Source: Candidatus Atribacteria bacterium (GTDB lineage Bacteria > Atribacterota > Phoenicimicrobiia > Phoenicimicrobiales > Stramentimicrobiaceae). Taken from it: 64,000 bases of DNA. Location: the NCBI GenBank assembly GCA_018402425.1, contig JAGYIZ010000003.1, forward strand, positions 1 to 64,000, read 5' to 3'. Under the pieces are notes generated by a model. The model was given only the letters and a program-made list of their open reading frames with translations, was not told the DNA's origin and made no database searches. Shown piece after piece: positions 8,441 through 58,734 of this stretch (position 1 is its first letter; each line of letters starts with the position of its first letter). Position numbers and translations under genes: made by a program.

Positions 8441-10172
8441 CTTTAAAAGGTTCCTTTCTAAAAAGCATTTCTCTGGCATGTTCAAGGCTGATTGAACCAT
8501 ACTGCTCACCATCCAGCATCCTTGCTATTTCGTCCAGTTGTTCATTTCCAACTAGCCTTTTTAACTGTATACATGTTTTATTATTATGAACATATTTACT
8601 GATATAAAGATGTAAATTTGCTCTACAAGCGATTTGAGGTAAGTGTGTTACAGCAATAACCTGGTGATTATGGGAAATTTTTGATAATTTAGTGGCAATA
8701 ACCTCTCCCAGGCGAGCGCCCACACCGCTATCTATTTCATCAAATATCATAGTGGGTATTTTATCTGCCTTACTTAAGATTGATTTGAGTCCCAGCATTA
8801 TTCTGGAAACCTCACCTCCCGAAATAATATCGGCAAGTGGTTTTTCTTTTTCACCTGCATTAGAGGCAATAAAAAACTCAATCAGGTCAATTCCCCCAGC
8901 TGTAATCTTAAATGACTTATCTTTTATTTTTATTCCGTTCTCGTCTTCTTTTTGCTTTATTTGAATTTTAAAATTACAATTTTTCATGTTTAATTCATTC
9001 AATTCTTTAACAATATCTTTTTCTAACATCCTGGCAATGAAATTGCGCTGTTTGCTTAATTCTAAAGACAGGTCTGCTAACTTTTTTTCATATTCTTCCT
9101 TTTCCATTTTTAATGTTTCAATCTTTTCCTGGTTATCTTCAATACTGTTTAACTGTTTTTGTAATGTATCTCTGTAAAATAAAATATCAGTTAACTTTGA
9201 ACCATATTTCTGCTTAAGATGATTTATTAAACTAAGTCGATCTTCAAATTCCTGTAATTGTTGGGAATCAAAATCAATGCTATCTTTATATTCAATAATT
9301 TGATCTGAAATATCCTCTACTTTGAATTGTGTTTCTGTTAGCTGTTCTCTGAAATGGTCAATCTTTTTATCCAAATTTGCTATGGAGTTAAAATGGCCAA
9401 TCAAACGAACAAGGCTATCCCGCAAAGAAGGCTCTCCTTCTTCTCCTCCTTCATACAAAGCAAGAGAAGCCATTTCCATAATTTCTTTTATTCTTACGGT
9501 ATGGCGGATAATGTTTATCTTTTCTTCCAGTTCCTGGTCCTCATTTTCTCTTAATTTTGCATTATCAATTTCCTGGAGCTGGAATGATAAATAGTCTTTT
9601 TTTGATAAATTTTCAGCCCGATTTTTTAAAAGTTGATTTAATAAATTAGTTTTTGACTGCCACTGGGAAAAAATGTTATGCAGTTGTAATTTTTTCTGAA
9701 GAAATGATTGACCACCCAGATTGTCTACAAAATCAATATGGCTTTCGGGATTTAATAAAGACTGATGGCTATGTTGCCCGTGCAAGTCAATCAAAAGATT
9801 TCCAATTTCCTGAAGGGAAGACAATGTTACCAAATGATTATTGATCCAACATTTATTTTTCTTTTTCCGGTGAACCTGCCTCCTGATTACCAATTGCCGA
9901 TCCTCTGCCAGGAGATCAATTGTTTTCTCAAGTGTTTTTAGTTGGTTTTGAGGCAATAATTCTAGATTAAATAGTCCCTCTACTTCTAAAAACTCTGCAT
10001 TACTTTTTATCAGACTGCTATTAGCCGTACTTCCTAATATGACATTTATAGCCTCGATAATGATGGACTTCCCTGCCCCTGTTTCCCCGGTAATTACATT
10101 GAGCCCTTTCTCAAATTCAATATTCAGTTCATCAATCAGAGCAAAATTATTTATTTTTAGATAAAAAAGCAT
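8430..10172 (-). CDS. recN: DNA repair protein RecN
   Basis: An SMC-like ATPase that acts at double-strand breaks. The N-terminal Walker A GETGAGKS occupies residues 29-36, a long coiled coil covers the middle, and the C-terminal half has the ISGGEVSRIML signature and the IFDEIDSGVGARLGE Walker B region. 580 aa is the normal length. It is 48 nt downstream of nadK and overlaps the next gene by 11 nt, so the sigma-54 activator is co-transcribed with a repair gene. The nadK-recN pairing is common in Firmicutes and related phyla. Confidence 0.95.
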   Translation of the reverse strand: MLFYLKINNFALIDELNIEFEKGLNVITGETGAGKSIIIEAINVILGSTANSSLIKSNAEFLEVEGLFNLELLPQNQLKTLEKTIDLLAEDRQLVIRRQVHRKKKNKCWINNHLVTLSSLQEIGNLLIDLHGQHSHQSLLNPESHIDFVDNLGGQSFLQKKLQLHNIFSQWQSKTNLLNQLLKNRAENLSKKDYLSFQLQEIDNAKLRENEDQELEEKINIIRHTVRIKEIMEMASLALYEGGEEGEPSLRDSLVRLIGHFNSIANLDKKIDHFREQLTETQFKVEDISDQIIEYKDSIDFDSQQLQEFEDRLSLINHLKQKYGSKLTDILFYRDTLQKQLNSIEDNQEKIETLKMEKEEYEKKLADLSLELSKQRNFIARMLEKDIVKELNELNMKNCNFKIQIKQKEDENGIKIKDKSFKITAGGIDLIEFFIASNAGEKEKPLADIISGGEVSRIMLGLKSILSKADKIPTMIFDEIDSGVGARLGEVIATKLSKISHNHQVIAVTHLPQIACRANLHLYISKYVHNNKTCIQLKRLVGNEQLDEIARMLDGEQYGSISLEHAREMLFRKEPFKDEK

Positions 10173-10219
10173 GGGTAGGTACCACCAATCATCTTTATAT
10201 CACTCATTTTTATCAAAAT

Positions 10220-11092
10220 TCAAGAGATAACTCTTCCGCTCCATTTCAACTTTTTTCTCAAAACTCCATAAAAACTTTTTTCCGGAAATGTCACCAGTTT
10301 AGTTTTATATTTTGATTCTTGAATTACAATGATATCATTTTCTTCTAAATCAAAGCCTTGCTGGCCATCAACTGTTAACATTACATCCTTAGCTTTAGAT
10401 AATACAATAATTTTCAAGATGTCTTTATGATTAATAACTAACGATCGAGCAGAAAGTGTGTGTGGACAAATAGGAGTAATAACCATTGTTTTTATGCTAG
10501 GATACACGATTGGGCCTCCGGCAGAAAGAGAATAAGCAGTTGATCCTGTTGATGTCGAAATAACCAACCCATCAGCAGTATAATGAATTACATATTCTTC
10601 ATTAATATATGTTTCTAAATGAATTAACCTGGCAAACAATTTTTTTGCCACTACTATATCGTTAAGACAATAAAATTGTTTTATATTTTCATCTTTTCTC
10701 ATTATATGTCCGGATAGCATCATTCTTTCTTCAATCTTGTAAGCACCTTCCAAGATGTAGTTTAGGTATTTACTTAATCCATGTATTCCTATCTGAGTTA
10801 AAAAACCTAATCCACCCAGATTTATTCCGCATATAGGAACCCCGTTAACTGCCACTAAACGGGCAGCTCTTAATAATGTTCCGTCACCTCCTAGAGAAAA
10901 AACCATATCTACATTTTTATATGGTGATGATAAAATATTCACTTTATCCGGGTCATCAAGATGCTTTGCAATCTTCTTTGAAACTAGGACTTCAATATTC
11001 TTTTCCCTTAAATCATTAATTAATTTTTGGGTTATTTCTAGAAACTTATCTTTTTCATCATTCACTATTAACCCAACTCTTTTTATTTCCAT
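10220..11092 (-). CDS. nadK: NAD kinase
   Basis: Phosphorylates NAD to NADP in the cytoplasm. The GGDGTLLRAARL motif (about residues 68-79), NLGGLGFLT and the DGLVISTSTGSTAYSLSAGGPIV stretch are the catalytic and NAD-binding signatures of the family; 290 aa is typical. It lies 10 nt downstream of the preceding small membrane protein gene and 48 nt upstream of recN. An NADP supply fits the NADP-linked glutamate dehydrogenase and NfnAB further along the window, although this gene is near-universal. Confidence 0.95.
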   Translation of the reverse strand: MEIKRVGLIVNDEKDKFLEITQKLINDLREKNIEVLVSKKIAKHLDDPDKVNILSSPYKNVDMVFSLGGDGTLLRAARLVAVNGVPICGINLGGLGFLTQIGIHGLSKYLNYILEGAYKIEERMMLSGHIMRKDENIKQFYCLNDIVVAKKLFARLIHLETYINEEYVIHYTADGLVISTSTGSTAYSLSAGGPIVYPSIKTMVITPICPHTLSARSLVINHKDILKIIVLSKAKDVMLTVDGQQGFDLEENDIIVIQESKYKTKLVTFPEKSFYGVLRKKLKWSGRVIS

Positions 11093-11102
11093 TACTTGCT
11101 CC

Positions 11103-11645
11103 TCAGTTTATGAAATACATAGCCAACATTGCCAACAAAGCACCTAAAAGAAAATATATGGCATTTTCAATCCATTTGGAATGGAAATGAGGCAGTAAAA
11201 ATTTTACCTCGGAAAATTTTTTATGTTCCATATCAAAAAGTATAATACCATATGTTTGATAAGCTAAATAATACTCTAATAATTGTCTCCTGGTATCTCT
11301 GTTGGTAATATAACTATTTTTCCGACCACTTTTAACTTCTACAATATATTTTCGACCACCTTTTTTTACCAAAAAATCGGTTCTTATTAGATAACGATGG
11401 CTTGTTCTCCCAGTTTGTATAATTAAAGGTCTGCTCTGTTGTTTTTCTATAATCTGAAAACCATTTCTCTTAAGCCATTTTTCGGCCTTTTTCTCTGCTC
11501 GCTTACTAGTTACTGACCTCTTTTTGGCTTTCCTATTATTTATAAAGTCTCTTGTTTTCAGAAATAGAATGAGGGATAAGAGCCCTCCTAACAGAAAAAT
11601 GATAATTACTAAATATAGATTATGATTAATATCTAAAAAACCCAA
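11103..11645 (-). CDS. membrane-anchored PD-(D/E)XK nuclease-like protein
   Basis: A basic protein with one hydrophobic segment near the N-terminus, one at the very C-terminus, and between them a GxxAE-like helix (RAEKKAEKWLKRNGF), a TDFLV strand and an EVKSGR motif, the layout of a PD-(D/E)XK nuclease core of the UPF0102/NERD kind. The frame continues to an ATG at 11726 inside tlyA. I prefer the TTG at 11645 because AGGAG lies 8 nt upstream and no overlap is then needed (181 aa). Its place between tlyA and nadK-recN hints at DNA metabolism, but an enzymatic role is unproven and the family is not one I can name. Confidence 0.65.
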   Translation of the reverse strand: MGFLDINHNLYLVIIIFLLGGLLSLILFLKTRDFINNRKAKKRSVTSKRAEKKAEKWLKRNGFQIIEKQQSRPLIIQTGRTSHRYLIRTDFLVKKGGRKYIVEVKSGRKNSYITNRDTRRQLLEYYLAYQTYGIILFDMEHKKFSEVKFLLPHFHSKWIENAIYFLLGALLAMLAMYFIN

Positions 11646-11688
11646 TGAAAACACTCCTGAAAAGGAGTTGATATCGCTGCCATAATTA

Positions 11689-12504
11689 TTAATTTTTTTT
11701 AAAAAAATATTGATGGGCCTCAGCAACCGTGTTGTTTATTAAATTTAGGTCAATAGAAAACTTATTTTCTCTATTTTTAATTAGATAAATCAAATATTCA
11801 ATATTTCCCGGAGAATTTTTTATAGGTGAAAATGTAATATCCATAAAATTAAAATCATTTTTTAGATTACTAACTAACCTGGTTATAGTTTCTTGATGAA
11901 CATTAGGATCATCGACAATTCCACCCTTTTTTACATTTTCTCTTCCAGCTTCAAATTGTGGTTTTACCAATGCAATAACTTTTCCATCCGGGTTTAATAA
12001 TCCTTTCAGTACTGGCAATACTTTTTCTAAGGAAATAAAGGAAACATCGATAGTTGCCAAGTCAAATTGAAAATCAAATTGATTTTCATCCAGATATCTT
12101 ATATTTGTTCTCTCCATATTGACGATTCGTTCATCATGACGCAGGGTCCAGTCAAGCTGTCCATAGCCAACATCAATACAATAAACCTTTTTAGCACCTT
12201 GTTGTAGCAAACAATCGGTAAACCCTCCAGTTGAAGCACCAACGTCAATTACAGTCATATCCTTTACTGAAAGATTAAATTCTTTTAAGGCCTTTTCCAG
12301 TTTTAGGCCACCTCTGCTTATATATTGATTATCATCTTTTTCAATTATTAGCTCACTGTCAATATTGCATCTAGTGCCCACTTTATTTATCTTTTCACCA
12401 TTAACAAGTACTTTATTGGCCATAATATATCTCTTTGCTTTTTCTCTGGAATCTATTATTTTTCTATCTACTAACAATTTATCTAAACGTTCTTTTTTTA
12501 TCAT
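11689..12504 (-). CDS. tlyA: TlyA family rRNA (cytidine-2'-O)-methyltransferase
   Basis: An S4 RNA-binding domain (residues about 3-65, RLDKLLVDRKIIDSREKAKRYIM-type sequence) precedes an FtsJ/RrmJ-like SAM-dependent methyltransferase with VIDVGASTGGFTDCLLQ as the SAM-binding loop. Members methylate cytidines of 16S and sometimes 23S rRNA; some were called hemolysins. 271 aa matches the family. It is the first of the tlyA-nadK-recN series that is conserved in Firmicutes. The dispersed repeat at 12524 lies just upstream of its start. Confidence 0.92.
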   Translation of the reverse strand: MIKKERLDKLLVDRKIIDSREKAKRYIMANKVLVNGEKINKVGTRCNIDSELIIEKDDNQYISRGGLKLEKALKEFNLSVKDMTVIDVGASTGGFTDCLLQQGAKKVYCIDVGYGQLDWTLRHDERIVNMERTNIRYLDENQFDFQFDLATIDVSFISLEKVLPVLKGLLNPDGKVIALVKPQFEAGRENVKKGGIVDDPNVHQETITRLVSNLKNDFNFMDITFSPIKNSPGNIEYLIYLIKNRENKFSIDLNLINNTVAEAHQYFFKKN

Positions 12505-12523
12505 ATTATATCAATAACAACAA

Positions 12524-12552
12524 ATACCGCACCACCAAGCGGGTGGCTTTAC
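12524..12552 (+). repeat. partial copy of the dispersed hairpin repeat
   Basis: ATACCGCACC followed by AAGCGGGTGGCTTTA matches the first part of the repeat at 27021; the hairpin GCACC...GCGGGTGG is degenerate here and the rest of the element is not recognisable. It sits in the 129-nt gap between the tlyA start and the end of the GerMN gene. Confidence 0.55.
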
Positions 12553-12633
12553 CATTCCTCTTTTTTTTAGGTTTTTATGATTTTGGGTAAAATATTTCAA
12601 GTAGTATATCTATTTTCTTTCTTTATAGTAAAA

Positions 12634-13230
12634 TTATTTTTTTAGCCATTGCTCATCTCTTTCCAAAGGAACACTAGTATCTACATGACCCACTAAAGTT
12701 TCACCGCTATTGCCATCGACTAGGAACTGCACTTTATCAATATCAGGAAAAGATGTCAGGGTCATTACAATAGAATAAATAGTTAACAATTCCCCCGTGC
12801 TACCACCGGGATGGTCTTCAATTATCTCAGAAGAAAAATCAATATAAGCAATTCTATCACTAACATATAAAGCATTAACCTTGGTAGTTTGAGGAATAGT
12901 AGGATAAAGGCTATTATTTTTGGGACCTTTGATTAGTTCCACTATCGACTGCTTTGCTGAGTAATCTGTCGGTTTAATCTTCCTGGATTCAGGTACAAGG
13001 TATTGTGCATTTTCATCAGAAAAATAAAGGGTTATTTCAAGTTCTTCAATTTCACTAACCACTTCTTCCTCTTCTATCTCTTCCGGAATTCCTTCCCTAA
13101 TTGGCTTCTCCTGCCAGAGGGGTATGATAAATTTTTGTACTAAAAATACAATAACAAATAATAAAAATATTAGTATAATTAAGTTAAAAATAGATTTAAA
13201 GAAATTATTTTTCTTTTTTCTTCGTGCCAT
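12634..13230 (-). CDS. membrane-anchored GerMN-domain protein
   Basis: A short basic cytoplasmic tail (MARRKKKNNFFK), one transmembrane segment at about residues 13-35, an acidic linker rich in Glu, and a C-terminal GerMN (sporulation/germination) domain, recognisable by LYFSDENAQYLVPE, QSIVELIKGP, YIDFSSE and VQFLVDGNSGETLVGH. Such domains occur in envelope proteins of spore formers and non-spore formers. It lies 13 nt downstream of a cell-wall amidase gene and is probably co-transcribed with it, so a role in peptidoglycan remodelling is the likeliest reading. Nothing else in the window indicates sporulation. Confidence 0.8.
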   Translation of the reverse strand: MARRKKKNNFFKSIFNLIILIFLLFVIVFLVQKFIIPLWQEKPIREGIPEEIEEEEVVSEIEELEITLYFSDENAQYLVPESRKIKPTDYSAKQSIVELIKGPKNNSLYPTIPQTTKVNALYVSDRIAYIDFSSEIIEDHPGGSTGELLTIYSIVMTLTSFPDIDKVQFLVDGNSGETLVGHVDTSVPLERDEQWLKK

Positions 13231-47266: not shown

Positions 47267-48475
47267 TTATTTTAATTTACTACATATTTCCATAGTATCA
47301 CGGGCAATCATTAATTCTTCATTGGTTGGTATAACCATTACTTTAACTTTTGAATTATCAGTACTTATAACTGTTTTGCTGCCTTTTGCATTATTATTTT
47401 TATTATCATCAATTTCTATGCCAAAACAAGTCAAGTCAGCACAAACATTTTTTCTTAGTTTAGGCGAATTTTCTCCTATACCTGCTGTAAAGACCAATAC
47501 ATCTAGACCATTCATCACTGCAGTATAAGCTCCAATATATTTTTTTAGTCCATAATGCAAAACATCCAGCGCTCTTTTTGCTTTTTTATCGCCTTTGCTG
47601 GCTTTCTCTTCCAAATCACGCTTATCACTTGATATTCCCTCTGATAATCCTATAAATCCGCTCTTTTTATATAAGATATTATTCATTTCTTCGGAATTCA
47701 GACCCTCTTTCTTCATTAAAAAAGGAATAACTGCAGGGTCAACATCACCACAGCGAGTTCCCATAATAACTCCTGATATTGTTCCAAAACCAAGACTGGT
47801 ATCAATAGATTTTCCATTTTTAACAGCAGTCAGACTGGAACCATTTCCAAGATGGCAGGTAATTACTTTTAATTCTTCCAGTTCTTTCCCTAACATTTCA
47901 GCTGCTTTTATGGCAACATATTTGTGAGAAGTACCATGGAAACCGTATTTTCTCACCCCATATTTTTCATAATAATGATAAGGCAATCCATAAAGATAGG
48001 CTTTCTCGGGAATCGTCTGATGAAAAGCAGTATCGAAAACTCCTACCTGAGGAGTATCCGGTAATAATTCCTGGCATACTTTTATTCCAAGTATATTAGG
48101 GGGGTTATGTAGTGGCGCTAATTCGATATATTTATTCAGGGTCTCCATTATATCTTGATTTATTAAAACAGATCCCGAATACTTCTCTCCACCATGAACA
48201 ACTCGATGACCAACAGCCGATATCTCTGAAATATCCTTGATAACACCATGATTATTATTCAATAAAGCATCTACCACCAATTCAATTCCTCTGCGGTGAT
48301 CAGGTATATCAATCTCTTTTTTCATAATATCTTTTCCAGTAGGGTAATGAGTAATCAATGACCCACTGATCCCGATCCTCTCTACTAAACCCTTCGCTAA
48401 TAATGATTCGTCGGTCATATCAAAAAGGCGATATTTTATTGAAGAACTACCACTATTAACTACTAATACCTTCAT
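47267..48475 (-). CDS. ackA: acetate kinase
   Basis: Makes ATP from acetyl (or propionyl) phosphate. MKVLVVNSGSSSIKYRLFDM, VGHRVVHGGEKYS, YGFHGTSHKYV, CHLGNGSSLTAVKNGKS and FTAGIGENSP are the complete set of signatures, at 402 aa. It lies between korDABC and nfnAB. No phosphotransacetylase gene is in the window. Because the surrounding pathway makes propionyl-CoA, propionate may be an additional substrate, but that is inference. Confidence 0.95.
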   Translation of the reverse strand: MKVLVVNSGSSSIKYRLFDMTDESLLAKGLVERIGISGSLITHYPTGKDIMKKEIDIPDHRRGIELVVDALLNNNHGVIKDISEISAVGHRVVHGGEKYSGSVLINQDIMETLNKYIELAPLHNPPNILGIKVCQELLPDTPQVGVFDTAFHQTIPEKAYLYGLPYHYYEKYGVRKYGFHGTSHKYVAIKAAEMLGKELEELKVITCHLGNGSSLTAVKNGKSIDTSLGFGTISGVIMGTRCGDVDPAVIPFLMKKEGLNSEEMNNILYKKSGFIGLSEGISSDKRDLEEKASKGDKKAKRALDVLHYGLKKYIGAYTAVMNGLDVLVFTAGIGENSPKLRKNVCADLTCFGIEIDDNKNNNAKGSKTVISTDNSKVKVMVIPTNEELMIARDTMEICSKLK

Positions 48476-48504
48476 TATAATTCCATCCCTCCAAATAATT
48501 TTTT

Positions 48505-49059
48505 CTATATTATTTTCAATTTTTCTCCTATTTTAAAACCATGTTCCAGGGCTTTTATATTTAACTCTTTTATCCTTGCAGGCATTCTGGCAGAAAGTGC
48601 TTTTTTTATTGCATCCCTGGTAACAATATCAGTTAATTGCACTATGATACCCAAAGATATAATATTAGTCACCAATTGATTACCAATCACTTTGATGGCA
48701 TCATCTGTAATAGGATGCTGGTATATTTTACCGGTAAAAGACGGCACTTTCAGCACATTAGTTGAATCTGCTAACAGAATTCCATCTTCACTTACATTTT
48801 TTATATATTTATCACAAGATTGTTGAGTTAAAGCCAGTAAAATATCGGACTTTATTACTTTTGGATAATCAATTTTTTCTTTGCTAATAATTACTTCTGA
48901 TCTACTTGCTCCTCCTCTGGCTTCCGGGCCATAGGATTGTGTCTGTACTACTTCAAAACCGTCATAAATACCGGCAGCCTCTGCCAAAATTATGCCAGCT
49001 AAAATCAATCCCTGTCCACCAGATCCACTTAAACAAATTTCTTTTCTTTCTTTATTCAT
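48505..49059 (-). CDS. korC: 2-oxoacid:ferredoxin oxidoreductase, gamma subunit (second set)
   Basis: Gamma subunit with CLSGSGGQGLILAG at the N-terminus and QSYGPEARGGASRSE, about 184 aa. The frame extends to 49086, but the ATG at 49059 follows GGAGGGGGAA and overlaps the korB stop by 8 nt, so I use it. It closes the gntR-korDABC set and precedes ackA by 30 nt. With glutamate dehydrogenase and methylmalonyl-CoA mutase in the same run, 2-oxoglutarate is the likely substrate. Confidence 0.92.
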   Translation of the reverse strand: MNKERKEICLSGSGGQGLILAGIILAEAAGIYDGFEVVQTQSYGPEARGGASRSEVIISKEKIDYPKVIKSDILLALTQQSCDKYIKNVSEDGILLADSTNVLKVPSFTGKIYQHPITDDAIKVIGNQLVTNIISLGIIVQLTDIVTRDAIKKALSARMPARIKELNIKALEHGFKIGEKLKII

Positions 49060-49879
49060 TTCCCCCTCCTTCTTGAGCAATGGCACAAACTTCTTTATAC
49101 TTATCAGTATATTCCGGTATACAAATGTCTAAAAATTCACCCATAGGAATTTTGTCTTTCTTTTCCTCAACAGATAATTTTTCCCATGTTTTTTTTGGTA
49201 CAGATATACTTTTTATCCACTCCATCATTTTAACAGGAGTCCTTAATTTATTCATCCTGCCATAAGAAATAGGACAATCTGAAATTATTTCAACAACTGA
49301 AAAACCTTTTTTACTTAACGCTTTTTTGATAAATCGTGTTCCTTGATTTGGGTTATAAATACTACTTCTTGCCACATATGAAGCACCTGCACTAGCGGCT
49401 AAAGCAGATAGATCAAAATTTTGATCAATATTTCCGTATGGTGCAGTAGAACCAAATTTTCCTGTGGGAGTCATTGGAGAATATTGTCCTCCGGTCATCC
49501 CGTATATCATATTGTTAATAATTACGGCAGTTATATCTATATTTCGACGTGCTGCGTGAATAAAATGATTACCACCTATAGCTGCACAGTCACCATCACC
49601 CATTACCGCTATTACTTTTAATTTGGGATTAGACATTTTAATGCCAGTTGCAAAAGGCAATGCTCTGCCATGCGTTGTATTCATAGTATTAAAGTCAACA
49701 TATCCGGTAATTCTACTGGAACAGCCAATTCCGGAAACCATTGCAACTTCATCCTTTTCCCAGCCTAAACTATCAATTGCCCGAATCAGGGCACCTAAAA
49801 CAATACCATTGCCACATCCCGGACACCAGATATGAGGAAACATCTCTTTTCTAATATATTTTTCAATAACATTCTTCAT
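49052..49879 (-). CDS. korB: 2-oxoacid:ferredoxin oxidoreductase, TPP-binding beta subunit (second set)
   Basis: Beta subunit with WCPGCGNGIVLGAL near residue 17, the GDGDCAAIGGNHFIHAARRN TPP/Mg motif and [14 protein letters not shown]. 275 aa is normal, a little longer than the first paralogue. Its ATG overlaps the alpha-subunit stop (ATGA). It is a 2-oxoglutarate-type (KorB) enzyme judged by context. Succinyl-CoA from it would feed the mutase encoded at 41.0-42.7 kb. Confidence 0.93.
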   Translation of the reverse strand: MKNVIEKYIRKEMFPHIWCPGCGNGIVLGALIRAIDSLGWEKDEVAMVSGIGCSSRITGYVDFNTMNTTHGRALPFATGIKMSNPKLKVIAVMGDGDCAAIGGNHFIHAARRNIDITAVIINNMIYGMTGGQYSPMTPTGKFGSTAPYGNIDQNFDLSALAASAGASYVARSSIYNPNQGTRFIKKALSKKGFSVVEIISDCPISYGRMNKLRTPVKMMEWIKSISVPKKTWEKLSVEEKKDKIPMGEFLDICIPEYTDKYKEVCAIAQEGGGNE

Positions 49880-51024
49880 TGACTCATTTCCTCCTCAATT
49901 TTTTCAAGGATTTCAATAGGATTTATCAAATCTCCATCAATCCGAGTATAAGATATAACGCGACTCTTACCCTGGGCTGCTCTTTGAACTTCTCTAACCA
50001 TCTGCCCTAAATTCATTTCCGGCACAACTATCAAGTCTACCTGGCTTGCTAATTGGTTAATTAAATCGTCATCAAAAGGCCATAAGGTTATTAATTTCAG
50101 TAGTCCTACTTTAATCCCTTTTTCTCTTGCTAATTTAACTGTTCTTTGTGCTGCCCTAGCAACAGAGCCGTAGGCTACTATTGCTATCTTTGCATCATCC
50201 AAAGAATATTCTTCTTTAATAACGATATCTTTTTTATTCAATTCCACCTTATTCGATAGTCTTCTTAAAAATTTATCAATCTCTTCAGCATCGGAAGTAG
50301 GGTAACCCTTTTCATTATGAACCAAGCCGGTTACGTGATATCGATAACCGCTACCAAAATCAGCCATAGGGGGCACCATGTCTTCATCCGCCTTAAAAGG
50401 CAGAAATTCATCTTTTTTTACATTAGTTTTTTTTCTATCTATAATTTCCAATTGCTCCCTGGAAGGAATATTTACTTTTTCACGCATATGTGCAATAACT
50501 TCATCTAATAATAACATAACCGGAGTACGATATTTCTCGCTAAAATTAACAGCTTTTACGGTTATTTCCAGTATTTCATTTACATCAGAGGGTGCAAGTG
50601 CAATCATGGGATGATCTCCATGGGTTCCCCAGCGTGCCTGCATCACATCCCCCTGGGAAGGTTTGGTCGGCAATCCGGTACTGGGGCCACCGCGTTGCGC
50701 ATTCACGATTACACATGGAATTTCACCTATTGCTGCAAAACCAATATTCTCCTGTTTTAAACAAATACCCGGACCCGAACTGGCTGTCATTGCCTTTAAT
50801 CCGGTTAATGAAGCCCCTATTACTGCTGCCATGCTGGCAATTTCGTCTTCCATCTGCATAAATTTTCCATCAATTTTTGGCAATCTTCTAGCCATTCCTT
50901 CAGCTATTTCCGAAGCAGGGGTAATCGGATAGCCGGCAAAGAAACGGATACCTGCCAAAAGAGCCCCTTCAACACAAGCTTCATTGCCCTGCAAAATTTT
51001 TACTATCTGCTTTTCATCACTCAT
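49876..51024 (-). CDS. korA: 2-oxoacid:ferredoxin oxidoreductase, alpha subunit (second set)
   Basis: Alpha subunit of about 382 aa with GNEACVEGALLAGIRFFAGYPITPASE, MTASSGPGICLKQENIGFAAIGEIPCVIVNAQRGGPSTG and VPEMNLGQM. TTG and two ATG codons overlap at the start; the second ATG is 7 nt from GGAGG and is used here, although the ATG at 51027 is nearly as good. The korD stop overlaps this region. The chain is about 30 residues longer than its paralogue at 1369-2424 because of an insertion near residues 190-240. Confidence 0.92.
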   Translation of the reverse strand: MSDEKQIVKILQGNEACVEGALLAGIRFFAGYPITPASEIAEGMARRLPKIDGKFMQMEDEIASMAAVIGASLTGLKAMTASSGPGICLKQENIGFAAIGEIPCVIVNAQRGGPSTGLPTKPSQGDVMQARWGTHGDHPMIALAPSDVNEILEITVKAVNFSEKYRTPVMLLLDEVIAHMREKVNIPSREQLEIIDRKKTNVKKDEFLPFKADEDMVPPMADFGSGYRYHVTGLVHNEKGYPTSDAEEIDKFLRRLSNKVELNKKDIVIKEEYSLDDAKIAIVAYGSVARAAQRTVKLAREKGIKVGLLKLITLWPFDDDLINQLASQVDLIVVPEMNLGQMVREVQRAAQGKSRVISYTRIDGDLINPIEILEKIEEEMSQ

Positions 51025-51026
51025 CA

Positions 51027-51302
51027 TCAATCCTCCAAACTTCCATCTTTCATATTATAGTTAGCAACTTTTTTTCTGTTCTCAACCCTAATTGCAAAAT
51101 CAGGACACCGCAGTTCACATAACATACACTGGATACAATCATCAATTTTTTCGGCAACAGGATAACCTTTTTCATTTGCTACAAGAACTTTTTTAGGGCA
51201 ATAGTTAATGCAGATCCCACACGATTTACACCATTCTTCATTGACAATGATCTTGGTTTCCTCATTCTGGTAGACCTTCATATTGTCTTTTTTTGTTACC
51301 AT
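51027..51302 (-). CDS. korD: 2-oxoacid:ferredoxin oxidoreductase, delta ([4Fe-4S]) subunit (second set)
   Basis: Ferredoxin-like subunit of 91 aa with CKSCGICINYCPKK and CIQCMLCELRCPD, i.e. two CxxCxxCxxxC cluster motifs. Compared with the first korD it has N- and C-terminal extensions of a dozen residues each. The ATG shares a base with the gntR stop (TAATG), so the regulator and the enzyme are one transcript. Confidence 0.92.
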   Translation of the reverse strand: MVTKKDNMKVYQNEETKIIVNEEWCKSCGICINYCPKKVLVANEKGYPVAEKIDDCIQCMLCELRCPDFAIRVENRKKVANYNMKDGSLED

Positions 51303-52288
51303 TATCTCACCTCTCTTTTTTTTATATCAAAAATTCTTTTTTTTAAAGTATCAATAGACCCTTTGTCAGGTATATACATGAATTCAATTAATGGAGTTGA
51401 TTCATTAATTAATTTCTGGACTTCTTTTTTTCTTCCGGGAGATACAATAAGGATATCGCGTTTGCCAATAAATTCTTTTAGTTTTTTGTTATCATGTGTT
51501 GTTATATAAGTAATACTTTTATATTTTATTCCGGCATATTTGATTGATTTGAAAACACGTTCAGCAAATTTTTGGGTCAAACAAACTAAACCTATTTTCA
51601 TTTCCGAAGAAGTAGCACGGGCGATATTTACCATAGTCTCAATTTGAGGGTCAAGTGCAATGGCAATTATATTCTTAGATTCATTTTTAAGAAATTCCTG
51701 TACCTCTTGGAAATGAAAAAAGGTTGTTACAACCAAATCCGCTGATTTTGTTTTAGCAATAAAATCCTCTGGATGATGATACATTTCATCAATTAGAATA
51801 GGAATTATGTGAATACCGGTACCTAATTCCAATTTTTTTGAAAAATAATATAATTGTTCTTGATTACACTCTACAAAAGCGATACTGACATTATTAAGCA
51901 AATGCTTTTTTTCCTGTAAACGTTGATTAACAAGATAAAGAAAGTCTTCAATTTGAATATTTAATTCCAGAGCTTTCTGGATAGCTAAATCAATATGTTT
52001 AATAAGAGGATTATTATTTTTTTGTAACAACAATGCTTTTGATTGATAACCGTCTGCAATAATAAAAGTTCCTTTCCCGGAAGTTGAAGAAATTATTTTT
52101 TCCCGGGCAAGCTCTTTATAAGCCATACTAACGGTATTCCGGCTAACACCTAGCTTGATTGACAACTCTCTTTCGGTAGGTAATTGGGTATTTTTTTCAA
52201 GTTGCCCTTCCATTATTAATTTTTTTAGGTATTCTTCTATTTGAAGGTAAAGAGGTATTCTACTATTCTTGTCAATCTTAATATCCAT
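51302..52288 (-). CDS. GntR-family transcriptional regulator with periplasmic-binding-like C-domain
   Basis: A winged helix-turn-helix of the GntR type (residues about 1-75, with IPLYLQIEEYLKKLIMEGQL, LPTERELSIKLGVSRNTVSMAYKEL and GKGTFI) is followed by a 250-residue C-terminal region with alternating strands (NVSIAFVECNQEQLYYFSKKLE, LVVTTFFHFQEVQEF, KIGLVCLTQKF, DILIVSPG), resembling a ligand-binding periplasmic-protein-like fold. 328 aa in all. It is the first gene of the korDABC-ackA-nfnAB-gdhA run, so it probably controls glutamate or 2-oxoacid use and its own expression. The effector is unknown. Confidence 0.85.
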   Translation of the reverse strand: MDIKIDKNSRIPLYLQIEEYLKKLIMEGQLEKNTQLPTERELSIKLGVSRNTVSMAYKELAREKIISSTSGKGTFIIADGYQSKALLLQKNNNPLIKHIDLAIQKALELNIQIEDFLYLVNQRLQEKKHLLNNVSIAFVECNQEQLYYFSKKLELGTGIHIIPILIDEMYHHPEDFIAKTKSADLVVTTFFHFQEVQEFLKNESKNIIAIALDPQIETMVNIARATSSEMKIGLVCLTQKFAERVFKSIKYAGIKYKSITYITTHDNKKLKEFIGKRDILIVSPGRKKEVQKLINESTPLIEFMYIPDKGSIDTLKKRIFDIKKREVR

Positions 52289-52390: not shown

Positions 52391-54391
52391 TTACAAATCT
52401 AGCTCTTTTGGCTTAATCATTATCTGCATTATAAAAGTAATACCAATAATTCCTATTCCAGCTAGATTAAGTAATAGCTGGGACGGTATAACACAGAATG
52501 CGCCTACAAAAAGAAAACTTCTCTCAAGCATAGAAGTCTTCCGAAAGAAATAACCCTGTGTCGCCCCTGCAAGGCCTAGTGACATACCCAACGCCAGCAA
52601 GATGCCAAATCCCATTTTCGCAATATTTAAATCCGGCATAAAATTCCAGGCAATAATTTCCGGGTGATAAATAAACATAAAAGGAAGTAAGTAACCGGGC
52701 AAAGCGAGCTTGGTTGATTCCAATCCAACCTTAAAAGCCGGAGCCCTGGCAATGGCCGCTCCAGCAAAGACAGCCAGCATTACCGGTGGTGTAATATCAG
52801 CTAAAATACCATAGTAGAAAACAAATAAATGGGGAAGAATCAATGGGGAATTTTCGGTCATAAGTTTAATCAACGCCGGTGCAATCAAGGTTGCCATAAT
52901 TACATAGTTTGCAGTGGTTGGTACGCCCATTCCTAAAACCAGAGAAGATATAGAAGCCAGAAGTAAGGCAATGGGTAAAATCCCTCTGGATAAATTAAAG
53001 ACAATACCGGTAAACTTCAAGCCCAATCCTGACATTGTCGTGATCCCGACAATAATACCGGCAGCCGCACAAGCTACAGCAACAGTCGTTGCTGCCATTC
53101 CAGCATCAGTTATCGCTTCAATTAATTTTTTTGGTGTCATTCGCGTTTTAGCATTGAACATACTTATAATAAGTAAGACGACAACACTGGCAACAACTGA
53201 CTTTTGTGGGGAATATCCATCTATTAACAAATAAATCAGAATAAATATGGGAGCCAATAGTATCCATCCGATTTTTAACGTTTTAATTAAATTGGGCAAT
53301 TGTTCTCGAGTAAGCCCTACCAGTCCGATTTTAGCAGCCCTGAAATCAACGGCCATAAAAAGTGCCAGGTAATAGAAAAAAGCTGGCAATATAGCCGCTT
53401 TAGCTACCTCAATGTACGGAACCCCCAAAAATTCAGCCATAATAAAGGCAGCTGCTCCCATGATGGGGGGCATGATTTGTCCGCCGGTTGAGGCTACCGG
53501 TTCAACAGCACCGGCAAAGACTGGACTATATCCCACATTCTTCATTAAAGGAATTGTAAAACTACCTGTCGTAACAGTATTGGCGGTTGAACTTCCGGAT
53601 ATGGTGCCCATCATTCCGCTTGCTACAACCGCTGCTTTAGCTGGTCCTCCTCTGGTATAACCGGTTAATGCTGTTGCAAAATCAATGAAAAACTTACCAG
53701 CACCAGTCTTATTCAAAATAGCCCCAAAGAGAATAAAAAGGTAGACAAAATTGGCTGAAACACCCAACGGAGTCCCAAAAATACCAGCGTCTGTTAGAAA
53801 TAAATAATAAGCAACACGACTGATTGGGAAAGTACCATGGGAAAACCTTCCAGGCATATAAGGACCAAATACCAATGCATAAAGCAAAAAAAATAGGGCA
53901 ACAAACATCAAAGGCGGGCCCACTGCTCTCCTGGTAGCCTCTAGTGTAACTAAAATAAGTATAACACCTAGAATAACATCAGCAGTATTGGGGTTACCAG
54001 CTCTCCATACTAATTCATGTATATTGGTTAGAACATAAAAACAAAGTATAATGGCCAGACCGATAAAGATAAAATCATACCATTGAATTTTATCCCTTCT
54101 TGTGTGCTCTGATCGAGCAAATAAGGAAAAAGTCATTATTAAAATAAACATGAAATGAATAGAACGTTGAATCAAACTAAAGTATGCACCGAACCAGCCG
54201 GTATACATATGAAAAATAAACAAGCCGACGGATGCTATTAAAATTGGTATAAACCAGTGTCCCCGTAAATCTCTCTTTGCCTTTAATTCAATTTCTTCAG
54301 GATTTTTAACATTTGTAGTATTGTCAGCAGGATCTTCTTCCGGTAATGATTCTTTCTTATTAATATTTTCATCTATAGTTCTTTTATTCAC
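52391..54391 (-). CDS. TRAP transporter fused permease (4TM/12TM, TAXI type)
   Basis: Membrane component in which the small (DctQ-like) and large (DctM-like) subunits are one chain with about sixteen hydrophobic segments. The large part contains GMMGTISGSSTANTVTTGSFTIPLMK, GGQIMPPIMGAAAFIMAEFLGVPY and VLGMGVPTTANYVIMATL, typical of TAXI-TRAP fusions. The frame reaches a TTG at 54421, but GTG at 54391 lies 11 nt after AAGGAGG and is used here (666 aa). It overlaps the DUF1850 gene by 8 nt. Transport is driven by Na+ or H+; the substrate is discussed with the binding protein. Confidence 0.92.
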   Translation of the reverse strand: MNKRTIDENINKKESLPEEDPADNTTNVKNPEEIELKAKRDLRGHWFIPILIASVGLFIFHMYTGWFGAYFSLIQRSIHFMFILIMTFSLFARSEHTRRDKIQWYDFIFIGLAIILCFYVLTNIHELVWRAGNPNTADVILGVILILVTLEATRRAVGPPLMFVALFFLLYALVFGPYMPGRFSHGTFPISRVAYYLFLTDAGIFGTPLGVSANFVYLFILFGAILNKTGAGKFFIDFATALTGYTRGGPAKAAVVASGMMGTISGSSTANTVTTGSFTIPLMKNVGYSPVFAGAVEPVASTGGQIMPPIMGAAAFIMAEFLGVPYIEVAKAAILPAFFYYLALFMAVDFRAAKIGLVGLTREQLPNLIKTLKIGWILLAPIFILIYLLIDGYSPQKSVVASVVVLLIISMFNAKTRMTPKKLIEAITDAGMAATTVAVACAAAGIIVGITTMSGLGLKFTGIVFNLSRGILPIALLLASISSLVLGMGVPTTANYVIMATLIAPALIKLMTENSPLILPHLFVFYYGILADITPPVMLAVFAGAAIARAPAFKVGLESTKLALPGYLLPFMFIYHPEIIAWNFMPDLNIAKMGFGILLALGMSLGLAGATQGYFFRKTSMLERSFLFVGAFCVIPSQLLLNLAGIGIIGITFIMQIMIKPKELDL

Positions 54392-54920
54392 TCTTTTTAC
54401 GACCTCCTTTGTCCGTGACAATTATATCAATTGGTTCACCACTATCAGCAAGATTATTTAATAAATATTCTTGATTTTTAACCTTTAATATTTGTTCAAC
54501 TGTATAGGCGATTCTTAACGGTAGTTTTTTTATTTTTTGTTGTATTTTTATAACAACCATTTCTCCGTCAAAATAAATCTCTTTTGAGGGATGGCATTCC
54601 TGGCCTACTCCATACCAGGGATACCTTTCTTCCAATAAATAAAAATAACCCTCTTCCCCTATTTGAAATAGATCAATTATGGGATTTAAATCTCTGGAAT
54701 TGGTATATTCCAGGTAAAAATTGTCTTTAGGATAAACCTGAATGGACAACAAGGTTTCCTGGTTATCTCGATGAATAACTTCAAGAAAATATTTCACTTC
54801 CGAAGAACAGGCACTAATTCCTATACCTGCTAATAAAAACAAAAAAATAAACAGAAAAGTAAGAGACAGGGAAATTATATAAATTTCCCTGTCTCTTACT
54901 ACAGACTTTATTATTGGCAA
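54384..54920 (-). CDS. DUF1850 protein of the TAXI-TRAP operon (possible lipoprotein)
   Basis: Small exported protein found with TAXI TRAP permeases. A hydrophobic N-terminal segment (about residues 14-36) ends in GISAC, an acceptable lipobox, then the DUF1850 body follows with FYLEYTNSRDLNPIIDLFQ and YPWYGVGQECHPS. The frame opens at a TTG overlapping the binding-protein stop by 10 nt, and no good ribosome site is visible there. The 19-bp hairpin lies inside these first codons, so the real start may be further downstream. Its function is unknown; a link between binding protein and permease is plausible. Confidence 0.75.
   Translation of the reverse strand: MPIIKSVVRDREIYIISLSLTFLFIFLFLLAGIGISACSSEVKYFLEVIHRDNQETLLSIQVYPKDNFYLEYTNSRDLNPIIDLFQIGEEGYFYLLEERYPWYGVGQECHPSKEIYFDGEMVVIKIQQKIKKLPLRIAYTVEQILKVKNQEYLLNNLADSGEPIDIIVTDKGGRKKSE
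54858..54900 (-). promoter_or_regulatory. 19-bp perfect hairpin between TAXI binding protein and DUF1850/permease
   Basis: AGTAAGAGACAGGGAAATT at 54858-54876 is exactly inverted at 54882-54900 around ATATA. On the minus strand it starts 10 nt past the binding-protein stop and is followed by a T-rich stretch. It should act as a partial terminator or mRNA stabiliser favouring the binding protein. Confidence 0.75.
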
Positions 54921-55870
54921 GATTCTCCTAACCCCACTTCTGTAAAGTATTTAATTGCTCCTTGATGTAATGGGATAGCGGTCTTGACTCCATTTTCTGG
55001 CACCAACTGTTTGGCAGAAGGATGTACATTATACAATTCTTCTGCATTTTCAAATAAGGTTTTTGTTAAAAGATACGCTATCTCTTCATCAATTTCGGAA
55101 TTAATTACCACATCGTTACCAACTTGAACAGTCGGTACATCTTCATCTTGTCCCTTATACGTTCCGGCAGGAATTACTCCGCTTTTGTAATATCCATATT
55201 CCTCTGTCAATTTTTCAATAATATCTTCGTCAACCGGTACAAAATAGACATCCCTTACTGCAGTAACCTCCTGAACTGCGGAACCCGGGAAAGAAAAATT
55301 CCAGAAAAGGGCATCAATATTTCTATCCTTCATTGCTTGGGCAGCCTCCGGCTGCGAATAATAACTCACTCGCATGTCATCATAAGACAAACCTGCTGCT
55401 TCTATAATCAATCTGGCCATGGTTTCACATCCACTCCCGGGAGCATCAACTGAAACTTTTTTCCCTTCTAAATCCCGGACAGATTTGATATCAGGATCGA
55501 TACTTATAAAATGTTGTGGGGCAGGATACATGGAAAATAGCCCCTTAATAGGTTGCTTATCATCTTCAAATTGCACCTGACCATGATAGGCTTTATAAGC
55601 AACATCACCCATCGCCATTCCAATCTGAACTTGATTTCTTCCAACCAAACGACAGTTTTCTACCGAAGCTGCAGTTGATTCAGCCGTGGCTTCAATACCT
55701 TCATCTTCCAATAATTTAGTCCACAAGTCAGCCATGGCACCTCCCAGGGGATAATAAGTTCCTCCCGGACTACCTGTACCAAAAGTTATATAAGTTTGTG
55801 CTAAACCAAATCCAGAAAATACAGATACTATCAATACAACTGTAATAAAAATACCTATTAATTTTCTCAT
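54911..55870 (-). CDS. TAXI family TRAP transporter solute-binding protein
   Basis: Extracytoplasmic binding protein of 319 aa. A signal peptide (to about residue 24, GFGLAQ) with no lipobox is followed by the TAXI body: FGTGSPGGTYYPLGGAMADLW, AMGDVAYKAYHG, KVSVDAPGSGCETMARLI and DALFWNFSFPGSAVQEV. The absence of a lipid anchor indicates a periplasm. TAXI members characterised elsewhere bind glutamate or similar acids; given the neighbouring glutamate-use genes a glutamate or dicarboxylate ligand is my inference. AAGGAGG precedes the ATG, with a second such element 64 nt upstream. Confidence 0.93.
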   Translation of the reverse strand: MRKLIGIFITVVLIVSVFSGFGLAQTYITFGTGSPGGTYYPLGGAMADLWTKLLEDEGIEATAESTAASVENCRLVGRNQVQIGMAMGDVAYKAYHGQVQFEDDKQPIKGLFSMYPAPQHFISIDPDIKSVRDLEGKKVSVDAPGSGCETMARLIIEAAGLSYDDMRVSYYSQPEAAQAMKDRNIDALFWNFSFPGSAVQEVTAVRDVYFVPVDEDIIEKLTEEYGYYKSGVIPAGTYKGQDEDVPTVQVGNDVVINSEIDEEIAYLLTKTLFENAEELYNVHPSAKQLVPENGVKTAIPLHQGAIKYFTEVGLGESCQ

Positions 55871-55978: not shown

Positions 55979-56006
55979 CTTATATGCTATATTTATAGAA
56001 TATCAA
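55979..56006 (-). promoter_or_regulatory. candidate promoter of the TAXI-TRAP operon
   Basis: TTGATA (5 of 6) and TATAAG (5 of 6) with a 16-nt spacer on the minus strand; the -35 box overlaps the end of the KamA-like gene. A GGACGTCC palindrome (55960-55967) follows just past the expected start and could bind a regulator. Confidence 0.5.
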
Positions 56007-57832
56007 TAATAATACCAAATTGAATTATATTCCTCGATATCCTCTCCCCGATCCTTCAGTTCCTTTAGATAATCACTGATAATGATATCACGATAGACAT
56101 ATGGTTCTACCGGGGCAATGCCCTTTTCCCAGGGATGCCACAGATAGACCCTCTGGCCTTCCGGGGTAAAGGCAATTAATTCCCGGTCCTGCCAGGCTCG
56201 GACATGGTTCTTGCCTAAACGTGGTACATTAAATACCGGCTCATCGGTGCGGAAGATACCGGGCAAAAGACGAGCTTCTTCTTTGCGCTCTTGCCAGAGA
56301 CGGGCTACCGGAACCAGATAATCCTTGTGTTCCGCCTTCCCTTTGGGGTAAAAGGTATAATATGGATCCACTCCTGCCTTTTTCATGGCAATACGGGTAG
56401 AGCAATTCTGAAAACGACGGCTGGTCTCCAAGGTGTAGACTAATTGATTGTAAACATAGATACCCTTGTTTCTTATCTTACGTACTGCTTCGGTTAAATC
56501 AGGGGTAACCTCGGCAGCACTTTCAATATGGGTTACCAGGGCAACATTGCGCTTTCCTGGTTGGACATAACTTGCCAGAAGATCAGCCAGCCTGTTAGTT
56601 ATGCGGTAAGGTACGGTGACAAAAACACGGCTCCCCCAGCGAATATTGATAATCTGTTTTAGGGAACAGAGACGATCCATGATATATTTGACCAACTCAT
56701 CATCTAAGGCCAGTGGATCTCCGCCAGTCACCAGTACATCACGCATGGATGGATGGTCTGAGAACCAGGAAAGTGCCTGGTCAATCTTTTCTTTGGTTGG
56801 CATGCCCTCCGGTAACATGGGACCGGTAATTTCCCAGTTGCGCTGACAGTAAACACAGATCTGGGGACAGGTATCATAAGCCTTTAGTATTGATATCATA
56901 GGATAACGTCTGGTAATTAGCTCCTCTGGGGAGGTATCATGCTCACCCATAAAGTCAAAGTAGTATTTTCGTTCCTGTCGATGTTCCCACATTAAATTAA
57001 CATAATGTAGTGGTGGAATTACCTGGGAACGAACCTGATAATCGTATTTCCGGTCAGCACGGGAAAAATCAAACAGGGAAAGGTAATAAGGTGTAATACC
57101 AAAAGGAATACCATGCTGCAGGGAAAGCTCAATAGCCTTAATATCCTCATCTGTCAAGGGAATCAGTTCTTTCAAGGCCTTGAGATCCTGTTCATCTTTG
57201 AAGATGTGCTTGACATGCCACTGGTAATCATACCAGTCATCTTCACTCGCTGAGAAGTATTCTCTGATTTTTCGGACATTTTCTTTACGCTGAGCTATAA
57301 GGGATTCATCCAGTCCGGATGGATAACGATCCAGGAATTCATTTACCTTGTTATAGAGATGATCCAGGTAAACTGAACGGGCCTGACCGGCTTCCCTTCC
57401 TTTTATTTTCTGGAAATCAATCATTTTGATTCCGTCTTTTTCCAAAATAGGACCAAGCCAGCCACGTGCTACATCAGCCTTGCCAGCCATAGCCAATAAC
57501 AAATGTCTTATTTCCTGAAGAAAGCCTTCCGATATTCCGGATTCGGTTTCATCATTTGCCAGTTCCCATAGATACTGGAGTGTACTAAACCCGGCAATTT
57601 TTTCATTACGAAGAGAAATAAGATTTGTAAATATCTTGATTGCCTCTAAAGCGATACTATAATCCAGCTTATGAAGTGGTTTTTCTCCTTCCCGATAGGC
57701 CCACTCCAGATCTTTGCAAAAGTTAAAAAGTCGAGTTCTTGCTACATTGATATCACTACTATCAGTCAAGATTTCTAATACTTCGGGCATCACAGAGAAT
57801 AATTGGCTTTTCTGTTCATCTTTTATTTGCAT
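56003..57832 (-). CDS. long KamA-family radical SAM protein (aminomutase-like)
   Basis: Relative of lysine/glutamate 2,3-aminomutases, which move an alpha-amino group using SAM, a [4Fe-4S] cluster and PLP. The cluster motif CPQICVYC (CxxxCxxC) lies near residue 325, with DVLVTGGDPLALDDE after it. At 609 aa it is about 200 residues longer than KamA; the additional part is a helical N-terminal region with no domain I recognise. The KamA PLP motif PGGGGK is replaced by VPRLGKN, keeping a Lys. The gene is visibly richer in G and C than its neighbours, which may reflect transfer. Substrate unknown; it follows an RpiR regulator by 41 nt. Confidence 0.82.
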   Translation of the reverse strand: MQIKDEQKSQLFSVMPEVLEILTDSSDINVARTRLFNFCKDLEWAYREGEKPLHKLDYSIALEAIKIFTNLISLRNEKIAGFSTLQYLWELANDETESGISEGFLQEIRHLLLAMAGKADVARGWLGPILEKDGIKMIDFQKIKGREAGQARSVYLDHLYNKVNEFLDRYPSGLDESLIAQRKENVRKIREYFSASEDDWYDYQWHVKHIFKDEQDLKALKELIPLTDEDIKAIELSLQHGIPFGITPYYLSLFDFSRADRKYDYQVRSQVIPPLHYVNLMWEHRQERKYYFDFMGEHDTSPEELITRRYPMISILKAYDTCPQICVYCQRNWEITGPMLPEGMPTKEKIDQALSWFSDHPSMRDVLVTGGDPLALDDELVKYIMDRLCSLKQIINIRWGSRVFVTVPYRITNRLADLLASYVQPGKRNVALVTHIESAAEVTPDLTEAVRKIRNKGIYVYNQLVYTLETSRRFQNCSTRIAMKKAGVDPYYTFYPKGKAEHKDYLVPVARLWQERKEEARLLPGIFRTDEPVFNVPRLGKNHVRAWQDRELIAFTPEGQRVYLWHPWEKGIAPVEPYVYRDIIISDYLKELKDRGEDIEEYNSIWYYY

Positions 57833-57873: not shown

Positions 57874-58734
57874 CTAATAAAAAATATTATGCGTATCCCA
57901 CATTTCTTCTAATTCAGACAATTTTTTAATAGTTTGTTTGCCTTTTTTAATGCTTACAGCAGTAACAATGGCATTGATAATACTTAATGGAGCGGTGAAT
58001 GAATTGATAAATGAATTCAAGTCACTCCGTGCAATTAAGGAAACATCTGCCTTTTGTGAAATAGGAGAAACAATACTATCTGTAATTGTAGCGGTTTTTG
58101 CTCCTTTCTTATTGGCTATTTCTACTATTTCAACAGTTCTACGTGTATATCGGGGGAAACTAATGGCAATTAATAAATCTTTTTCATTAATACCGGCAAT
58201 TTGTTCAAATAAATCTTCCATTCCATAGGTAATACTCTTAGTATTCCTTAGAAATAAGCTTAAAGCCTGGTTAAAAAACAATGCCATTGAGGCAGCTGTC
58301 CGTAATCCGACAATATAAATTACTTCTGCATTTACAATATAGTTAATCAATTTTTCAAAAGATTCTGGAGAGACCTCATTGATTGTTTTTTCTAAATTAT
58401 CTAAATCTGATTGCAGGACTTGATATAATACATTTTTCCCTTTGTAAACATTATTAATTGACTTCTTTAATTGATTAACAGTCGTTAACTGCATTTTAAC
58501 AATATTTTGAAGCACTTTTTGTAGTCCGGGGTATCCATCATAGCCTAATATAGCTGCAAATCTAACAATAGTTGATTCGCTCACACCAACTTCTTTACCA
58601 AGTCTAGCAGCAGTTAAAAAAGCTGCTCTATCGTAATTATTAAGTAAATAATGGGCAGTCTTTTTTTGACTTGCGCTTAATTTGTGAAAATTTTTTTGAA
58701 TATTTTTTTGAAATGATAGATTGTTTTTAATCAT
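57874..58734 (-). CDS. RpiR-family transcriptional regulator (HTH plus SIS domain)
   Basis: An N-terminal HTH_6 domain (residues about 5-80, LSASQKKTAHYLLNNYDRAAFLTAARLGKEVGVSESTIVRFAAILGYDGYPGLQ) and a C-terminal SIS sugar-phosphate-type domain (from about 130, VIYIVGLRTAASMALFFNQ, DLLIAISFPRYTRRTVEIVEIANKKGAKTATITDS). 286 aa is usual. It lies upstream of the KamA-like gene in the same direction and may control it. RpiR proteins often sense sugar phosphates, but those near amino-acid genes can sense other ligands. Confidence 0.92.
   Translation of the reverse strand: MIKNNLSFQKNIQKNFHKLSASQKKTAHYLLNNYDRAAFLTAARLGKEVGVSESTIVRFAAILGYDGYPGLQKVLQNIVKMQLTTVNQLKKSINNVYKGKNVLYQVLQSDLDNLEKTINEVSPESFEKLINYIVNAEVIYIVGLRTAASMALFFNQALSLFLRNTKSITYGMEDLFEQIAGINEKDLLIAISFPRYTRRTVEIVEIANKKGAKTATITDSIVSPISQKADVSLIARSDLNSFINSFTAPLSIINAIVTAVSIKKGKQTIKKLSELEEMWDTHNIFY

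Follow-up and report, generated by a model that had tools for sequence, protein, structure and literature searches.

The gene under study, encoded on the minus strand of a 64,000-nucleotide stretch of Atribacterota DNA (hereafter the window), specifies a long KamA-like radical SAM protein, for which we tentatively propose, at slightly less than even confidence, the role of a PLP-dependent 2,3-aminomutase of an acidic α-amino acid, most likely converting L-glutamate to β-glutamate (3-aminoglutarate). The protein belongs to a clade of KamA relatives of approximately 600 residues, named F600 in this analysis. The class of chemistry, that of PLP-dependent radical aminomutases, is well supported. 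F600 is not a new enzyme class, as by all structural signs its core is a known one; the pocket, the additional domain, and the clade are its own. The features of the gene, its product, and its neighborhood are collected in Table 1.

Table 1. Features of the F600 gene, its product, and the adjacent genes (positions in the window; LAM, lysine 2,3-aminomutase)
Feature	Positions	Strand	Basis
KamA-family radical SAM gene, F600	56003..57832	-	ORF; TIGR00238 311.1 bits; PF04055 34.7 bits
All-helical, family-specific N-terminal part, residues 1-182	57287..57832	-	AlphaFold
Aminomutase core, residues 183-572	56117..57286	-	VIA-align to 2a5h_A
CPQICVYC, putative [4Fe-4S]/SAM site, residues 322-329 (C322, C326, C329)	56846..56869	-	Alignment, conservation
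R331, equivalent of LAM R134	56840..56842	-	Pairwise alignment with 2a5h
K497, in place of LAM D293	56342..56344	-	MAFFT and hhalign agree
N535, probably in place of LAM D330	56228..56230	-	MAFFT column; hhalign disagrees
K541, likely equivalent of the PLP Schiff-base lysine K337	56210..56212	-	hhalign; gapped column in MAFFT
RpiR-type regulator (HTH_6 and SIS), just upstream	57874..58734	-	Domain match
TAXI-type TRAP solute-binding protein, just downstream	54911..55870	-	TIGR02122 300.9 bits; similarity to structurally solved TAXI proteins
DUF1850 protein	54384..54920	-	PF08905
TRAP fused permease	52391..54421	-	TIGR02123 672.4 bits
GntR-type regulator	51302..52288	-	PF00392
2-Oxoacid:ferredoxin oxidoreductase (ferredoxin, alpha, beta, gamma) and acetate kinase; neighborhood only	47267..51302	-	Alpha and gamma by NCBIfam; rest read from translations

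The gene is a single intact open reading frame with an ATG start and no internal stops, located in a genome assembly of 2.13 Mb (137 contigs, 78.6% complete). Its 609-residue product exceeds the cut-off of the KamA family model TIGR00238 (311.1 versus 199.2 bits, residues 188-540) and the gathering score of the radical SAM superfamily model PF04055 (34.7 versus 29.5 bits), in agreement with the first-pass annotation, which had described a KamA-like radical SAM protein of this length from the sequence alone. The scores for narrower subfamilies are all below their cut-offs. Glutamate 2,3-aminomutase (EAM; TIGR04368) ranks first among the substrate-named models with 183.9 bits, far below its cut-off of 650, and is followed by lysine 2,3-aminomutase (AblA; TIGR03820, 146.4 bits, cut-off 525.4), arginine 2,3-aminomutase (BlsG; TIGR04468, 128.7 bits, cut-off 600), the AblA-like 2 model TIGR03822 (103.5 bits, cut-off 396.25), and EpmB, the EF-P β-lysylation enzyme, with which F600 shares the KamA family (TIGR03821, 97.9 bits, cut-off 369.3). 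Among solved structures, a significant sequence match was obtained only to the lysine 2,3-aminomutase of Clostridium subterminale (2a5h).

β-Glutamate and β-lysine derivatives are osmolytes. The view that the protein is a lysine 2,3-aminomutase isoform or an enzyme of β-lysine osmolyte formation agrees with its membership in the KamA family, but is highly improbable: the TIGR03820 score is far below the cut-off, all 81 family rows with a residue at the D293 position have Lys instead of Asp there (see below), and the same genome encodes a separate true AblA (771.3 bits, cut-off 525.4), which makes another enzyme for lysine unnecessary.

The full-length AlphaFold model, built from an alignment of 53 family members (the window protein and 52 of the best 80 loci), has a pLDDT of 89.1 and a pTM of 0.88. 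In VIA-align, its core matches chain A of 2a5h with a Z score of 41.9 (rmsd 1.8 Å over 336 residues, 29% identity), while the runner-up entry has a Z score of 13.6. The N-terminal extension, earlier put at about 200 residues, amounts to approximately 185, since the TIGR00238 match begins at residue 188 and the superposition on lysine 2,3-aminomutase at residue 183. Residues 1-186 folded alone gave a pLDDT of 87.5. No Foldseek match to the N-terminal part was found in the PDB at E ≤ 0.001, and its top VIA-align Z score was 4.8, with the matches being mostly helical bundles; such a lack of PDB matches does not show a new fold. As a guess, the helical domain would probably serve in oligomerization or gating.

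The cysteines of the CPQICVYC segment, reported by the first-pass annotation as a CxxxCxxC cluster site, align with C125, C129, and C132 of 2a5h and are invariant in all 82 family rows. The same holds for R331, the counterpart of LAM R134, which contacts the substrate carboxylate. K497, N535, and K541 are each invariant in the 81 rows with residues at these positions, the one exception being the truncated L077. In lysine 2,3-aminomutase, D293 and D330 read the side chain of lysine, and K337 is the PLP Schiff-base lysine. Two alignments were used to place the F600 residues relative to these three positions, namely, a MAFFT alignment of F600 with AblA, BlsG, and other KamA proteins and an hhalign profile-profile alignment of F600 against seven AblA and BlsG proteins. 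Both firmly place K497 at the position of D293.

The two alignments differ in the PLP loop, where the sequence VPRLGKN (residues 536-542) is indeed seen in place of PGGGGK, as had been pointed out. MAFFT aligns N535 with D330 but gaps the loop after it, so that K541 is not paired with the PLP lysine, whereas hhalign sets LGK on the GK of PGGGGK, with K541 on the PLP lysine and D330 falling in a gap. Both can hold, since a loop one residue shorter, N-V-P-x-L-G-K for D-A-P-G-G-G-G-K, would reconcile them. A Streptomyces KamA-like protein with DVPFVGK, a motif of the same spacing as NVPRLGK, has its Asp on D330 and its Lys on the PLP lysine in an HMM that includes BlsG rows; with an HMM lacking these rows, the match ends just before the Lys, and the local HMM alignments of three F600 rows end before the PLP loop. 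These alignments suggest that K541 is likely the PLP lysine and that N535 probably stands in place of D330. The PLP motif is thus altered, as claimed earlier, in that the loop is shortened; a loss of PLP use is not indicated, because K541 is invariant and lies on the PLP lysine by hhalign. The Streptomyces gene itself (L146, positions 1438-2871, motif VCDVPFVGK) is carried by a plasmid near peptide-ligase-related and SidA-family monooxygenase genes, possibly a natural-product pathway.

In sum of positions compared, F600 has in common with lysine 2,3-aminomutase the radical SAM core, the cluster cysteines, the places of R134 and the PLP lysine, and the fold over residues 183-572, and differs from it by K497 for D293, probably N535 for D330, PxLGK for PGGGGK, and the additional helical domain. 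Arginine 2,3-aminomutase likewise has a short PLP loop ending in GK, but the two BlsG rows retain Asp at the D293 position. The shortened loop, the large N-terminal domain, and a non-basic residue at the place of LAM R116 in the MAFFT rows shown, with an invariant Lys317 nearby, would suit another radical transformation of the PLP adduct, such as an elimination, a decarboxylation, or a lyase reaction without an amino shift. We consider this quite improbable in view of the close superposition of the model core on lysine 2,3-aminomutase and the retention of the cofactor residues that were checked. The new rearrangement suggested in the first-pass annotation is not shown, and the protein can be accounted for without it.

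As the cluster, the carboxylate arginine, and the PLP lysine are conserved, a radical 2,3-aminomutase is the natural reading. In the proposed mechanism, C322, C326, and C329 would hold the [4Fe-4S] cluster, and SAM would be cleaved to yield the 5'-deoxyadenosyl radical. PLP would be carried by K541 and then passed to the amino group of the substrate, whose α-carboxylate would be held by R331 and whose side-chain carboxylate would be held by K497 and probably N535, replacing the two lysine-reading aspartates. The radical would then abstract the β hydrogen, and the amino group would migrate from C2 to C3. Replacement of the acidic side-chain readers by Lys and, probably, Asn points to an acidic substrate, and the earlier idea of β-amino-acid formation fits a pocket changed in this way. 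Glutamate as the substrate is suggested by the pocket sequence: a Lys/Asn pair in place of the lysine-reading Asp pair is reportedly present in the glutamate 2,3-aminomutase of C. difficile. Aspartate is unlikely, and glutamate the first choice, because an amino shift to C3 of aspartate regenerates aspartate. The β-glutamate so formed may serve as an osmolyte or be an intermediate in the breakdown of amino acids.

Several observations speak against glutamate. Besides the low TIGR04368 score, the 100/100 branch that separates F600 from the EAM-like row (see below), and the failure of hhalign to put N535 on D330, the nearest EAM-like protein (L147; 586.6 bits to TIGR04368, under the cut-off of 650) has Lys at the D293 place (YYIFNCK), as does F600, but Thr at the D330 place, so that only half of the Lys/Asn pair is seen in a relative. 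This protein was the sole match at E ≤ 1e-175 among 386 genomes of relatives. No match of at least 650 bits to TIGR04368 was obtained in the window genome, nine host genomes, 77 and 17 genomes of two phyla, the 386 relatives, and eight more genomes; these scans do not show an absence of EAM, since control genomes also gave no match over the cut-off. According to a 2005 review (PMC1224877), NMR evidence stands against a glutamate aminomutase in methanogens, for which another route was proposed, and not all enzymes of methanogen β-glutamate synthesis had been identified.

In a phylogeny calculated with AblA, BlsG, and one EAM-like row, F600 falls in a separate clade. This tree has 46 rows, among which F600 (16 rows) and a second long subfamily, F730 (eight rows), each form a group of their own, supported at 100/97 and 100/100, respectively. 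F600 and F730 together are split by a 100/100 branch from the other 22 rows, including AblA, BlsG, and the EAM-like row, a split at which the program warns of long branches meeting. One-to-one clustering of the window protein with a characterized aminomutase subfamily is thus seen neither in this tree nor in the subfamily scores. F730 proteins (about 730 residues) include a "KamA family protein" on a Parabacteroides plasmid and form the sister clade of F600, joined to it at 100/100. All eight F730 rows have Lys at the D293 place and an NLPxxGK motif, which counts in favor of the glutamate reading. A short segment around YPSGLD is common to both clades (PSGLD segment in 7/8 F730 rows, E values between 6e-7 and 2e-11), the eighth row, L152, being a cut-off frame of 467 residues. 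This segment was not detected in AblA or BlsG rows, and the EAM-like row gave an E value of 0.42. F730 differs from F600 by its greater length and its own motifs, and no characterized member of it was found in the literature searched. The F730 rows are L021, L137, and L148-L153, about 730-770 residues long and found also on Bacteroidales plasmids.

It is doubtful, if conceivable, that F600 and F730 are glutamate 2,3-aminomutases forming a second lineage, on a branch of its own, in anaerobic bacteria and archaea, the hosts of which make or degrade β-glutamate via a route lacking assigned genes. If the glutamate assignment is true, host genes labeled as lysine 2,3-aminomutase or KamA would make β-glutamate rather than β-lysine. 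Given its wide distribution and a substrate prediction open to testing, the subfamily could lead to the correction of annotations in which F600 is merged with lysine 2,3-aminomutase. For uncultured phyla such as Atribacterota, it provides an enzyme that can be assayed directly.

The genes surrounding F600 vary by lineage and include those of TAXI-TRAP transporters, branched-chain-type ABC uptake genes, and a protein of the Pfam AAT family. By raw counts, of the 35 loci flanked by 4 kb or more on both sides (the window included), 14 have a transporter-cluster gene within 8 kb and 21 have none. Nine of these 14 loci contain a binding protein or a permease, and the other five an ABC-ATPase-like gene only. 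Branched-chain-type ABC genes are found beside F600 in L034, L035, L044, L045, L047, L051, and L061, and TAXI-TRAP genes occur, among the nine loci, in L055 and the window. No same-strand neighbor is present within 200 bases of the F600 gene in 33 of 81 loci, 11 of the 33 being at the end of a stretch. No recurring gene for β-glutamate use was seen beside F600 in the comparison of neighboring genes across the F600 loci. Both findings count against the glutamate reading.

These variable neighbors, together with the position of F600 outside every characterized subfamily tested and its own invariant or nearly invariant motifs (FDFMxExDTSP, EEARLLPG, and PWEK), would also suit a radical SAM PLP aminomutase of another substrate. 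Candidates are 2-aminoadipate, glutamine, an amide, and an N-substituted amino acid; K497 and N535 would then hold a carbonyl group or a longer acid. We regard such a substrate as unlikely, the Lys/Asn exchange being the one reported for glutamate, which remains the simplest reading.

The link of the F600 gene to the TRAP transporter is loose, and no TRAP genes follow in L024 and L102. A 132-residue piece similar to the C-terminal part of the TRAP permease lies between the KamA-like and GntR genes in L026 (positions 10198-10593) and is perhaps a sign of transporter loss. The adjacent TAXI proteins were compared, by hand, with the glutamate-contacting residues of VcGluP (Y45, S75, Q93, E125, Y200, and M201 in PMC11574862) through an alignment to 8s4j, which, judging from the matching numbering, would be the VcGluP of that paper. 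On this numbering, Y45, S75, Q93, and E125, but not Y200 and M201, are conserved in the TAXI proteins next to the F600 genes of L031 and L055, and the four retained contacts speak for the glutamate reading. In the window, L023, and L028, the TAXI protein has the two contacts of the amino group changed, Q93 to Met and E125 to Ala. None of the five proteins retains both Y200 and M201, although L023 has Tyr at the first position. Glutamate uptake by the window TAXI protein was considered as support for the substrate and did not hold: as the main contacts Q93 and E125 are changed, the window transporter is not good evidence for glutamate, and the two changes count among the points against it.

The earlier description of a composition unlike that of the flanking genes agrees with our calculations. 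The GC content of the gene is 0.434, compared with 0.300-0.400 in 15 neighboring genes, its GC3 is 0.418 compared with 0.220-0.348, and its codon fit is the lowest among the 16 genes compared. The GC-rich part is the core, and the N-terminal part is less so (GC3 without Met and Trp codons of 0.435 and 0.314, respectively, and 0.393 for the whole gene). The EF-Tu gene of the same genome has a GC3 of 0.356, but the minus-strand frames of the ribosomal-protein/fusA region have 0.20-0.28, and thus expression alone is not shown to explain the rise in GC3.

Recent acquisition of the gene from a foreign source, which is independent of its function, could be read from this composition, if that was meant earlier, and from the contrast between its two parts. 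The comparison with other genomes makes such an origin very improbable. The codon bias recurs in weaker form in 7/9 orthologs (GC3 above the mean of the neighboring genes; the exceptions are L028 and L102), and the difference between core and N-terminal part recurs in 8/9. The upstream genes are the same in other Atribacterota, with gene clusters read as FTCD_C-like, prfB, and secA located upstream on the same strand in nine loci each. In L024 and L102, the gene is followed by those for a GntR regulator, oxoacid oxidoreductase, and acetate kinase (names read from translations). In a quick tree of 83 rows (without L077, a split gene), the window protein lies inside an 11-row group with support of 100, comprising itself, nine Atribacterota, and one contig labeled Nanoarchaeota; Chloroflexota adjoin this group (84). 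Recent horizontal gain was therefore set aside, since the gene order is conserved and the tree follows the phylum. The Nanoarchaeota-binned contig (L029), whose gene falls within the Atribacterota group, is probably misbinned.

Within the phylum, the full-length gene is present in 15 of the 25 genomes of three families (f1, f2, and f3; the window genome included), with the other 14 copies at 67-82% identity. Three more of these genomes have split or partial copies, the remaining seven gave no match, and no match was found in 25 genomes from four other families. The distribution, gene order, and tree indicate that the gene is old in this order and has been passed on mainly by vertical descent.

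A scan of one genome per species identified at least 567 loci encoding a relative, confirmed at E ≤ 1e-3, a threshold at which other KamA proteins may be among them; F600 itself probably has hundreds of members. The best 80 of the at least 567 loci show 46-80% identity, and their hosts belong to Atribacterota, Chloroflexota, Bipolaricaulota, Thermoproteota, Methanotrichaceae, Thermoplasmatota, Bacteroidota, and others. F600 genes thus occur in many anaerobic bacteria and archaea. MJ0634 of M. jannaschii is a possible F600 member, for which a literature search returned nothing. In the part of the literature that was searched, no description of the long F600 subfamily was found; a published tree built from GTDB genome sequences with the KEGG kamA assignment (PMC11337218) may contain F600 members.

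A genome bin labeled Bacillota carries tandem family members (L091, positions 491-2464 and 2487-4355). The F600 gene of L077/L018 (G012:C153) is split by a stop or a frameshift into frames of 456 and 159 residues. Finally, L162 (G000:C78, positions 9491-12703) has, downstream of a true AblA gene, a gene for a 614-residue protein with an ATP-grasp part and a C-terminal GNAT-like part, as read from its translation, which is perhaps a fused form of the β-lysine acetyltransferase.
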